A DNA stretch of 64,000 nucleotides from Sphaerisporangium siamense (GTDB lineage: Bacteria; Actinomycetota; Actinomycetes; Streptosporangiales; Streptosporangiaceae). The DNA lies in contig NZ_JACHND010000001.1 of NCBI RefSeq assembly GCF_014205275.1, positions 5,828,001-5,892,000 on the forward strand, given 5' to 3'. Numbering within the stretch: the first letter of the stretch is position 1; the number at the start of each line of letters is the position of its first letter. Shown here in pieces: positions 21,358 through 39,694 of the stretch. The translations under genes were made by a program, and so were the position numbers. The notes under the pieces are model-generated. The model was not told the origin of the DNA and searched no databases. It worked only from the letters and a program-made list of their open reading frames with translations.

Positions 21358-23748
<2,391 letters not shown>

Positions 23749-25420: not shown

Positions 25421-26749
25421 TCAGCGAGGCGACGTCGTGAGTTCCCGCCGGGCGAGTTCTCGCAGTTCGGCGGTGCACATCATGAATCTGCCCGTGGGGA
25501 GGTGCGCCACGTAGTGGTCCAGGTCGGCGCCGAGGGCGAAGACGTGGACCGGGGTGCCGGTGCCGGCGCCCGATTCGACCGCCTGGCGCAGGCCGGCCAG
25601 GACGGCGGGATGCCGGGTCTGGTAGGAGGGGGCGACCAGGTGGTTACCCCGGTCGGCGGCCAGGTAGAACTGGGTCAGATCCTTGGTCCCGACGAAAAGC
25701 TCGCTGGCTCCGGCGGCGCAGAACTCGGCCGCGGAATGGACCGCGGCGGGGGTCTCGACGAAGACCGAGAGAGGAAGGTCGCCGGGCAGGTCGAGGTGCA
25801 GGCGCAGGCGCAGGAACTCGTCCTGGTCGTTGATGAAGGGCACCGCGAAGCTCACCCGCGCCGCCGCGAGCCCGAGCCGTTCCCGCACGTGGGCGCGAAG
25901 CGCCCGGAACGCCCGCGGGTAGTGCTCCTCGTTGAGCAGTCCGCGCGCGCCGTGCAGGCCGAGTTCGGGGTTGGGTTCGTGGTCGACCTCGACCTCGGTG
26001 GTGATCCGCGCGGCGTCGTCGGAGCGGAGGTCGAGCAGTCGCATGACGATTCGCTGGCCGGGGAGCAGTTCCCTGACCAGCGCGCACAACTCCGCGGCGA
26101 CCGCGGTTCCGTAGCGTTCGGCCTCGGCGGCGCCTGCCCGGAGCGCGTCCAGCGGGCTCAACCCCGCCGAAAGGCAGAGGAACTCCTCACGGATGAAGAA
26201 ACTGTCCACCTGCTCGACGCGGGGGACGAGCGTGTTGATCGTCCGGATGTCGGTCGCGGCGGCGACGACCACGCAGATCGACCCGAGGTCGCCCGGAGTG
26301 ACGACCGGGGACTCGGGAGCGTGCACGGAGGGCTCGGTATCGCCGAGCACGACGGACTGGCGGTCGGTCGAGACGGTGACGTAACCGCTGACCCGCGCCA
26401 GGTCGGACGGCGCGACGCGCAGGACCGGGATCCCCCGGGTGCGGCACAGGGACTGCATGTGGCCGGTCCGGCCGCCGCGGGAGCAGATCACGGCGGACGC
26501 GGCGATGACGGCCTTGTACAGTTCCGGGCCGAGCGTCTCGACGACCAGCACAGAGCCCTCGATCGGCTTCCCGGTGCGATTGCAGACGCCCCCAACGGTC
26601 GTCGACGGCGTACCGGCGAGCAGAACCCCTGGTATCTCGCGAGAACTCACGGTCGTCTCCCATGGCCACAGGTCGGTGACGACGACGAGAACGCCGGCGG
26701 GCGGGCGCCTCGGCGTCGTCATGGCTCCGCCGGAATCCGATGGAGCCAT
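25421..26749 (-). CDS. Stand-alone PEP-utilising enzyme (swivel plus PEP barrel, no ATP-grasp)
   Basis: A 442-residue protein built like the C-terminal two-thirds of PEP synthase or PTS enzyme I. Residues about 15-150 form a phosphohistidine swivel domain with SRGGRTGHMQSL (His is the expected phospho-carrier). About 170-440 is a PEP barrel: LLDLRSDDA (cf. TLDIGGDK), VFVETPAAV (cf. MIETPAA) and VGTKDLTQFYLAADRGN (cf. IGTNDLTQYTLAVDRGN), and near the end MMCTAEL in the place of the catalytic Cys. There is no ATP-binding or HPr-binding domain. It probably moves phosphate between PEP and an unknown acceptor. It is 102 bases downstream of a COG4529 flavoprotein gene. Confidence 0.78.
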   Translation of the reverse strand: MAPSDSGGAMTTPRRPPAGVLVVVTDLWPWETTVSSREIPGVLLAGTPSTTVGGVCNRTGKPIEGSVLVVETLGPELYKAVIAASAVICSRGGRTGHMQSLCRTRGIPVLRVAPSDLARVSGYVTVSTDRQSVVLGDTEPSVHAPESPVVTPGDLGSICVVVAAATDIRTINTLVPRVEQVDSFFIREEFLCLSAGLSPLDALRAGAAEAERYGTAVAAELCALVRELLPGQRIVMRLLDLRSDDAARITTEVEVDHEPNPELGLHGARGLLNEEHYPRAFRALRAHVRERLGLAAARVSFAVPFINDQDEFLRLRLHLDLPGDLPLSVFVETPAAVHSAAEFCAAGASELFVGTKDLTQFYLAADRGNHLVAPSYQTRHPAVLAGLRQAVESGAGTGTPVHVFALGADLDHYVAHLPTGRFMMCTAELRELARRELTTSPR

Positions 26750-26851
26750 GACACGAGCCTCGCAGCCGTCCGTCCGGCCACGCGTCTTCTCGAATGCTGA
26801 TCAGCCGTGCGGAGGGTCTGTGGTCTCGCCGGGAGCGGCGGTACTTCGGTG

Positions 26852-28729
26852 TCAGGTAGCCGGTTCCGCCGGTTCCGCGAGCCCGAGAAGGGAGCGGAGG
26901 TCCCGGGGCGTCACGGAGAGGTCCGTCATCTTCACCGTCGCGGCGGCGTTGACCGCGAAGCGCAGCGCGGGAGTCGTCGCGGGGGTGCCGCCGTTCCGCG
27001 TCGTGATCTCGCGGATCCTCTGGATGCTCTGTTCGAGGTGGCCCTCCAGTGCCTGGCGGTCGGCGCGCCGCCGGGTCGCCATCCGGCGCACGTCGAGCAT
27101 GACCGCACGCCCGGCCGCTTCGCCGCCCTCCCGGTCGGTGGCGCCGGTCAGCGTCACGGCGTCGTCGCCGGCGCGTTCGTCGTAGCAGGATTCGAGCCGG
27201 TGCAGCACGGTGGCCGCGACCTGCACCGAGTGGTTCTTGATCGCGGCGAGGTTGAAGGCGAACGCCCCCGTCCGCCCGTAGCGCACGATCTCGTCGCCCT
27301 CGCGCGGGCCGCCCACCACGGAGATCGGGCCCGACGGGACGCCGTCCCGTCCCAGGAGGACGCCGCGCTCGTCCACCTCGACGCCCCGCCCGGTACGCCC
27401 GTGCGGCAGTGCGAGCCCCTTCCGCAGGAGGCTCGCCCAAAGCGCGGACTCGACGCGCTCGTAGTCGGACTCCCGCCCGAAGTTCGAGATCACCAGGTCG
27501 GCCTCGACGGTGCGGGTCGAAAGCCGTCCCGCGACCGACAGTACGAGTCCGCCCGCCTCGGTCTCGCCGATGTCCACGATTCTTCCGGTGGTGATGATGA
27601 TCTGCCCGCCGGCGGCCATCGCGGCGTCGACCACTTCCGTCGTATACGCCACGGCGCCCACGCGCAGCACGGCCAGCAGGCTTCCGTAACCGTCAAGAAG
27701 CGCGCGGAGATCGGCGGACGGGACGCGCCGCAGAATCCGCGGCATATAAGGTTCCCAGGATTTGGCGACCCTTTCCGTTATCACCTCCGGCGGCACGTCG
27801 GGATACTCGCGGGCGACGGCGGCGCAGGCCCGTTCCCATTCTTCGGTGAGGCACCGGACGAATTCGTCGAGTCCTTCGTAGGCGTCGCGGTGCAGCCGGG
27901 GCGGGGGCAGGCGTAGCACCTGGTGCCGGTGGTCGGGGGGATATGTTCGCAGCGTCAGGCCGGAGCGGGAGATCATGTGAATCGTCCCCGTGTGGCCGCG
28001 GCGCAGCAGGAGCGCCGCCGAGTCGTAGGCGCTGAGCAGCGTGCCCACGATGGCCACGACGGCGTCCCGCCTGACGTCGAGGATCCGCGCGATCCCCGCC
28101 TCCGAGTACGGGTGCCGCACGAGCGCGGGATGGTCCATCACGCGGGCCGCGAAAGCCGGCCGTTTCCTTTCGAGGCCGGTGGCCAGCACGACGTGGTCGG
28201 CTTCGAGCACCGTGCGGCCGGATCCGCCGGCGTTCCCTGGCGCGGGGAAACCGTCGAGACCGTCGATGACGACGTGCACGTGGTCGCCGACGACGTCGAG
28301 GTCGACCACCTCGCCTCCCGCCTCGGTCAGGGTCACGCCCGTGGACGCCTCGCGCGCGGCTTCGGCCAGGCGGCTGGCGAGGTAGTCGGGGTAGATGCGC
28401 CGGGGCGCCGGGCCGGACTCGGTGAACTCGGTGTCCCGCCATTCCGCGGGCCAGCCGGTCCGGTCGGCCTCATGGTTGGCCCACAGCACGAAATCGTCGA
28501 CGTCCTCGCGGAACATCGACATGCGGCCGGCCTGGATGTTGAAAACGTGGTGCCAGTGATTGCCGGCCCGGTGATACGCCACCCCGGCGCCCCGATATTC
28601 GGCGCGTCGTTCGAGTAACACGACCTGCAATGGTTCTCTGGCGAAACGAAGAATACGGATGGCGGTGGCGGTACCTGCCAGGCCCGCCCCGACAATGACG
28701 ACCCTGCGAGTCCGGCCGGCGCGCGTCAC
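26852..28729 (-). CDS. COG4529-type FAD/NAD(P)-binding protein
   Basis: A 625-residue flavoprotein. The N-terminal FAD motif is VVIVGAGLAGTATAI (about 10-24), and VLATGLERKRP with a second GxLxxAYD-type NAD(P) region (VGTLLSAYDSAALLL) lie mid-protein. The NAD_binding_9 (PF13454) family, also called YdhS-like, has no firm biochemical role but resembles amine-N-hydroxylases and Baeyer-Villiger-type enzymes. The GTG start at 28729 is inferred from the first FAD strand. It is probably co-transcribed with the downstream PEP enzyme, suggesting one pathway of oxidation plus phosphoryl transfer. Confidence 0.82.
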   Translation of the reverse strand: MTRAGRTRRVVIVGAGLAGTATAIRILRFAREPLQVVLLERRAEYRGAGVAYHRAGNHWHHVFNIQAGRMSMFREDVDDFVLWANHEADRTGWPAEWRDTEFTESGPAPRRIYPDYLASRLAEAAREASTGVTLTEAGGEVVDLDVVGDHVHVVIDGLDGFPAPGNAGGSGRTVLEADHVVLATGLERKRPAFAARVMDHPALVRHPYSEAGIARILDVRRDAVVAIVGTLLSAYDSAALLLRRGHTGTIHMISRSGLTLRTYPPDHRHQVLRLPPPRLHRDAYEGLDEFVRCLTEEWERACAAVAREYPDVPPEVITERVAKSWEPYMPRILRRVPSADLRALLDGYGSLLAVLRVGAVAYTTEVVDAAMAAGGQIIITTGRIVDIGETEAGGLVLSVAGRLSTRTVEADLVISNFGRESDYERVESALWASLLRKGLALPHGRTGRGVEVDERGVLLGRDGVPSGPISVVGGPREGDEIVRYGRTGAFAFNLAAIKNHSVQVAATVLHRLESCYDERAGDDAVTLTGATDREGGEAAGRAVMLDVRRMATRRRADRQALEGHLEQSIQRIREITTRNGGTPATTPALRFAVNAAATVKMTDLSVTPRDLRSLLGLAEPAEPAT

Positions 28730-37283: not shown

Positions 37284-39632
<2,349 letters not shown>

Positions 39633-39664
39633 GGAACCCTTCCATCGTCGATGGTCGATTCGAA

Positions 39665-39694
39665 CGGCGACCACGGCCGCGGCCGTGGTCGCCG
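39665..39694. repeat. 30-bp perfect palindrome upstream of the UvrA-like gene
   Basis: Fifteen-base arms starting CGGCGACCACGGCCG meet with no spacer. It lies 33 bases before the GTG start. A second small dyad, CCATCG-T-CGATGG, lies at 39642-39654. As RNA it would form a 13-bp GC stem; as DNA it is a strong dimer site. Confidence 0.75.

Follow-up and report, generated by a model that had tools for sequence, protein, structure and literature searches.

The window, a stretch of 64,000 nucleotides from Sphaerisporangium siamense (NCBI RefSeq assembly GCF_014205275.1, contig NZ_JACHND010000001.1, positions 5,828,001 to 5,892,000), carries a two-gene unit at 25421-28729 on the minus strand, where the initial annotation had placed two open reading frames. 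The first gene, P2, is an open reading frame of 625 amino acids at 26852-28729 coding for a class-B monooxygenase-like FAD/NAD(P)-binding protein. The second, P1, is read in the same direction from 25421-26749 (442 amino acids) and codes for a protein with a swivel domain and a phosphoenolpyruvate (PEP) barrel. The likeliest start of P1 is the GTG at 26650, giving a predicted protein of 409 amino acids, because the family consensus begins there, a GGGAG directly precedes this codon, and residues 4-34 of the longer frame are unstructured in the model (pLDDT below 50). The main new result of our analysis is the link of this pair to enediyne cassettes. The pair occurs almost only where such a cassette exists, at times inside or beside it.

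P1 matched two Pfam families only, PEP-utilizers (the mobile or swivel domain, E 5e-9) and PEP-utilizers_C (the PEP barrel, a TIM barrel; E 2.7e-19, residues 225-401, 25547-26077, minus strand). The swivel motif GGRTGH, already pointed out in the initial annotation, is present at 26459-26476 on the minus strand. Its predicted phospho-acceptor, H97, is found in all 64 aligned sequences and aligns with the His of the genome's own enzyme I (EI) of the phosphotransferase system (PTS) and pyruvate phosphate dikinase (PPDK). The P1 model (pLDDT 84) matches the folds of PEP synthase, PPDK, and EI. Like the C-terminal half of PEP synthase and PPDK, its closest relatives by sequence and fold, P1 has the swivel ahead of the PEP barrel, and it has both the barrel and the phospho-His swivel in common with EI. 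However, PEP synthase and PPDK carry an ATP-grasp and EI an HPr-binding helical N-terminal domain, and neither was among the Pfam matches of P1, in agreement with the earlier description of the protein. No third gene generally adjoins the pair to supply an ATP-grasp, the domain scan having covered part of the neighbours. As the ATP-grasp and HPr-binding domains are missing, it is a fair inference from the sequence, made earlier as well, that the phosphate acceptor of P1 would not be that of PEP synthase or the PTS. In rifampin phosphotransferase, HpeHI, CreHI, and PpsAB, the swivel His hands phosphate to a small molecule, and in the last three the function is split over two proteins (PMC12167813, in the accessible part of that source). 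Those enzymes have an ATP-grasp and a rifampin-type substrate domain but no PEP barrel. P1 is the reverse, with no rifampin-type substrate domain among its Pfam matches.

The active site of P1 was read from a MAFFT alignment (A3) of 64 sequences, the window and 63 of the 74 relatives described below, against the genome's own EI and PPDK, whose frames were chosen by profile. Five relatives are absent through a coordinate artefact, two as broken genes, and four were omitted by choice; EI numbering was taken from alignment to PDB sequences. H97, R187, R237, E332, D357, and R367 are invariant in all 64 sequences and match what we take to be the phospho-His, PEP-binding, and Mg residues of both enzymes. 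The Glu and Asp ligands of Mg and the phosphate-binding Arg are kept as in EI and PPDK, with the exception of EI Arg358, which is His266 in all 64 P1 sequences (25952-25954, minus strand). EI Asn454 is likewise replaced by Lys356 in 64 of 64 (25682-25684, minus strand), and both positions are unchanged in the genome's own EI and PPDK. The catalytic Cys at the end of strand 7, present in both enzymes, corresponds to Phe in 60 and Tyr in four P1 sequences (Phe404 in the window, 25538-25540, minus strand); this placement rests on the MAFFT alignment, the PDB alignments ending before the position. A Cys anywhere in residues 398-412 was found in one of the 63 relatives. The same three substitutions thus set P1 apart from PEP synthase, PPDK, and EI. 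The initial annotation had held that the PEP barrel is kept: the barrel is there, and the predicted phospho-His and most of the PEP and Mg residues are invariant, but these three positions are altered. A candidate for a relocated catalytic Cys is Cys425 (25475-25477, minus strand), at the end of strand 8 (residues 421-425 in the model). It is invariant in 64 of 64; at the equivalent position, where the alignment has gaps, EI has Ala and PPDK Gly.

Because the catalytic Cys is lost, ordinary PEP-to-pyruvate chemistry by P1 appears uncertain from the alignment. The replacement of the Cys by Phe or Tyr in all 64 sequences, with two further active-site positions changed in all, could mean that P1 is no longer a PEP enzyme and instead is a regulatory or scaffold protein with His97 as a phosphate switch. 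We consider this unlikely, as a scaffold would not need the invariant His97, the three Arg, Glu332, and Asp357.

The partner of P1 was described earlier as a large flavoprotein, and P2 does match NAD_binding_9 (PF13454, E 5e-26) as well as Pyr_redox_2. Its translation includes the FAD Rossmann motif GAGLAG (28673-28690, minus strand). With the P2 model (pLDDT 88), Foldseek ranked the aspartate N-hydroxylase FzmM at positions 1-3, followed by KtzI, SidA, and PvdA. In these FzmM-type and ornithine/lysine N-hydroxylases, a helical domain accompanies the FAD and NADP domains, and in FzmM a helical, arginine-rich substrate domain lies between the two nucleotide domains (PMC10404684, in the accessible part of that source). 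The P2 model aligned to FzmM-type folds with a TM score of 0.54-0.57, a root mean square deviation (rmsd) near 10, and an identity of 18-19%. The rmsd indicates that the domain orientation of P2 therefore differs from that of the FzmM-type structures. In the predicted structure, at this level of likeness, helices of P2 sit where FzmM has its substrate domain. R261, H267, H269, K323, R356, R486, and K498 are invariant in P2, and given these conserved Arg, Lys, and His residues the proposed small amine substrate would probably be anionic.

To determine how widely the pair is distributed, we surveyed the order in a sample of 297 genomes. Of these, 21 encode a close orthologue of P1, at 64-100% identity and with E below 1e-170. 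Weaker, partial matches appear only from about 1e-15 on, leaving a gap below the orthologues. Close P2 orthologues are found in the same 21 genomes and in none of the others, the next P2 matches being near 1e-14. Judged by position, the genes are neighbours in 20 of the 21, and the remaining genome has them separated by about 1.6 kb. No orthologue was found in 395 other genomes of the phylum, where three matches near 1e-21 to 1e-24 span the barrel alone, in longer frames. A pattern scan of 84,980 species, one genome each, returned 74 loci, all from actinomycetes, for example Actinomadura, Saccharothrix, Lentzea, Streptomyces, Kitasatospora, and Actinoplanes. The scan needs exact short peptides, so relatives may be missed, and its loci overlap the order sample.

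The pairing suggested by the window is conserved: P2 lies upstream of P1 on the same strand in 73 of the 74 loci, of which two are cut by contig ends, two are interrupted, and one has the genes 1.6 kb apart (L088, where a TetR-like and a carboxymuconolactone decarboxylase (CMD) gene lie between them). The interrupted copies are L161, in both genes, and L126, in P2, and both genomes encode the enediyne marker unbU. The sole exception, L158, lacks P2 and retains only a truncated P1. In many Streptomyces-type loci and in six of the seven annotated plasmid records examined, P1 starts directly after the P2 stop. P1 and P2 distances are correlated over 64 loci (r 0.955), a value reached in none of 999 permutations. 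A further alignment (A4) holds the window and 64 of the 74 relatives; five are absent through the coordinate artefact and five by choice. P1 and P2 are a co-inherited, operon-like unit, paired far above chance. This conserved pairing, with the conserved residues, partly supports the earlier interpretation, which missed the loss of the catalytic Cys and the co-occurrence with enediyne genes.

As a marker for enediyne cassettes we used the UnbU-type gene of Streptomyces sp. NBC_00846, which is annotated as UnbU in some of the matching records. It is encoded in all 21 pair-bearing genomes of the order and in 118 of the 297 overall (hypergeometric P 1.2e-9). The association holds inside single genera. 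In the Actinomadura-like genus, unbU is found in 18 of 18 genomes with the pair and in 26 of 65 overall (P 3.1e-10), and in the Streptomyces-like genus of locus L121 in four of four and 13 of 150 (P 3.5e-5). Three of these last four genomes are also in the 74-genome set, one being the centre of the sample. Among the 74 pattern-scan genomes, 72 have unbU, one of them only as a 74-residue match at a contig edge. The other two are the genome of L158, with its broken pair, and that of L116, a 5.5-Mb metagenome-assembled genome (MAG) with a whole pair. Across 72,556 plasmids, the pair is on 10 and unbU on 49, and all 10 plasmids with the pair also carry unbU; several are near copies of one another. 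Plasmid matches ranking after the pair were mostly annotated as ptsP or ppsA (best 40 of 64 records). The order, genus, 74-genome, and plasmid sets overlap and are not independent. As a control, order genomes with only distant P2 homologues encode unbU in 14 of 36 cases, the background rate. A single enediyne class was ruled out as an explanation: the pair genomes span both unbU similarity classes (about 62-87% and 44-59% to the query).

The regions around unbU were examined in 20 of the 21 pair-bearing order genomes, the window's genome included. All 20 code for unbV and 15 for an enediyne polyketide synthase (PKS); contig ends or the limits of the regions may explain the five without a PKS. 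The cassette of unbV, unbU, PKS, and companions co-occurs with the pair, but most genomes of the order that encode unbU lack the pair. It is often elsewhere in the genome and, being found in 21 of 118, is not a companion of most cassettes.

The pair and unbU are also linked physically in part of the genomes. unbU and P1 are on one contig in 24 of the 74 genomes and at most 50 kb apart in 22, one of the latter having an interrupted pair; random placement in a 9-Mb genome would give about one of 74 within 50 kb. In Streptomyces sp. NBC_00846 the pair is inside the enediyne region according to the public plasmid record. On plasmid pTFSG1 the coordinates of the pair fall inside the lidamycin region, given as 16,475-112,894, and the pair is not discussed in the accessible part of the source (PMC6553541). 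On plasmid SGLP1 about 7 kb separate the pair from a UvrA-like gene that borders the C-1027 genes, and unbU is about 70 kb away. A block of MetE-like, CMD, P2, and P1 genes on SGLP1 (L168, 13766-24862) is bordered on both sides by a P4-type primase and a DUF6009 gene, an arrangement that resembles an insertion accompanied by duplication. In the genome of L160 (G725), a second, fragmentary P1 (contig C52, 170127-170540) lies at a distance of about 4.3 kb from unbU, and the intact pair is on a different contig, suggesting a pair once sat beside that cassette. The window's genome has its own cassette with PKS, unbV, unbU, and DUF1702 genes near 4.27 Mb (L200, G000:C1:4256000-4275900), the PKS being 64% identical over 1929 aligned of 1938 residues.

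That the pair is often unlinked to unbU and that its neighbourhoods are otherwise diverse would fit a secondary-metabolite or redox module unrelated to enediynes, the co-occurrence arising from ancestry and large genomes. We regard this as very improbable, given that the association holds within single genera (18 of 18 and four of four) and on plasmids (10 of 10), that genomes with only distant P2 homologues have unbU at the background rate, and that the pair is within 50 kb of unbU in 22 of 74.

No third gene is general beside the pair in the 74 loci and the order genomes, with neighbours predicted by a simple composition-based script that overlooked some pair copies; a wider operon was thus discarded, the recurrent partners being optional. 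At 18 of 74 loci, proteins of three CMD families, which we take to be AhpD-like peroxidases, are encoded no more than two genes from the pair. Eight loci have a His-rich membrane protein (F5) near the pair and seven a cobalamin-independent methionine-synthase-like protein (F7), in both cases sometimes a few genes away. Pfam was run on one member of each of the CMD, F5, and F7 families, and the F5 member scanned had no match. The F5 proteins have about 190-210 amino acids (for example L141:11444-12034, L121:11228-11857, and L149:5113-5688). The enediyne region of the window's genome also holds a CMD-family "peroxidase-related" relative; together with the CMD proteins near the pair, this hints at a further shared step. 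In the window, two UvrA-like ABC proteins flank the pair (21358-23748, plus strand, and 37284-39674, minus strand), and the second shares 50% identity with the SGLP1 UvrA-like gene located close to the C-1027 genes. Genes of the uvrA type have served as markers of metabolites that act on DNA (PMC10413001, in the accessible part of that source). A defence or phage system was rejected: P1 had no PADLOC match and P2 weak ones (E 0.003-0.004), and the pair had no PHROG match and no relative in viral contigs.

Could the pair protect its host, chemically disarming escaped enediyne or radicals as rifampin phosphotransferase disarms rifampin? P1 shares the swivel-His logic of that enzyme (PMC12167813, as far as accessible). 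The near-restriction of the pair to unbU genomes and the CMD neighbours at 18 loci would also fit, and an unlinked position is tolerable for resistance. Against this, P1 has no further substrate domain of the rifampin phosphotransferase type, and 97 unbU genomes of the order manage without the pair. Resistance genes often spread to non-producers, and a MAG holds the single intact pair seen without unbU. Self-protection in this form is doubtful. Because the two genomes without unbU comprise one with a broken pair and one MAG with a whole pair, and given the plasmid result, we lean toward a role that is useful when the enediyne is made and is coupled to production.

We propose that the pair is a dedicated accessory oxygenase-phosphotransferase module of enediyne-producing actinomycetes, biosynthetic or protective, and put the probability of this reading at roughly 0.6; its chemistry is deduced from fold and residues. 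P2 would draw on FAD, NADPH, and O2 for the oxygenation, probably an N-hydroxylation, of a small and probably anionic amine. In P1, the swivel residue His97 would accept phosphate from PEP and could pass it to a small molecule that shares a short pathway with P2, as its substrate or its product, rather than to HPr or to AMP/Pi. Cys425 might take over the proton transfer of the lost Cys, or make proton transfer unnecessary. What the module makes would either contribute to the maturation or supply of the enediyne or shield the producer from it. The unrecognised phosphoryl-transfer and oxidation pathway proposed in the initial annotation is plausible in this light.

Several observations weigh against the accessory module. 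Kinship inflates the P values, the order outside the Actinomadura-like genus giving six of six (P 0.004). A whole pair occurs without unbU in the MAG of L116, and two proteobacterial plasmids also match the unbU marker, at 45-48% identity. Of the 118 order-sample genomes with unbU, 97 lack the pair, which the enediyne core can therefore do without. unbU is on another contig or was not found in 50 of the 74 genomes, and in the window's own genome it is about 1.6 Mb from the pair. Cassette content was checked in the 20 order genomes alone. For P2, the likeness to FzmM is by predicted fold alone, with its rmsd near 10; FzmM was not among the matches to P2 in a profile search of PDB sequences (E up to 10), and the anionic amine rests on the conserved Arg, Lys, and His residues.

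A different chemistry for the pair is also conceivable, if quite unlikely. Instead of pyruvate, P1 would make from PEP a Mg-bound enolpyruvate nucleophile, which a P2-made electrophile, for example a nitroso or oxime group, would trap, forming a C-C or C-N bond. The phosphate would go to His97, and the enolate would be trapped because the proton donor is gone, with Phe or Tyr in place of the Cys. In this reading the pair would be a PEP-driven system for oxidative coupling, building a small accessory molecule that enediyne producers alone use.

A description of the pair was not found among the matches listed in the literature on enediynes, enediyne neighbourhoods, the C-1027 plasmid, PEP-utilizing and flavoprotein clusters, and COG4529, as far as these sources were accessible and supplements aside. 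One of them describes an enediyne neighbourhood network, and neither phosphoenolpyruvate nor carboxymuconolactone occurs in the accessible main text (PMC5181780). The novelty of an enediyne-linked pair is provisional.

Few natural products are as potently cytotoxic as the enediynes, and several steps in their making and in the survival of producers are unsolved. The pair hints that an auxiliary step, either in enediyne production or in tolerance of the product, has been overlooked. A two-gene unit that tracks the cassette over many genera and yet is often distant from it would be missed by cluster-centred mining. P1, with a swivel and PEP barrel but neither an ATP-grasp nor the catalytic Cys that is usual in such enzymes, would be an example of a central metabolic fold put to a new use.

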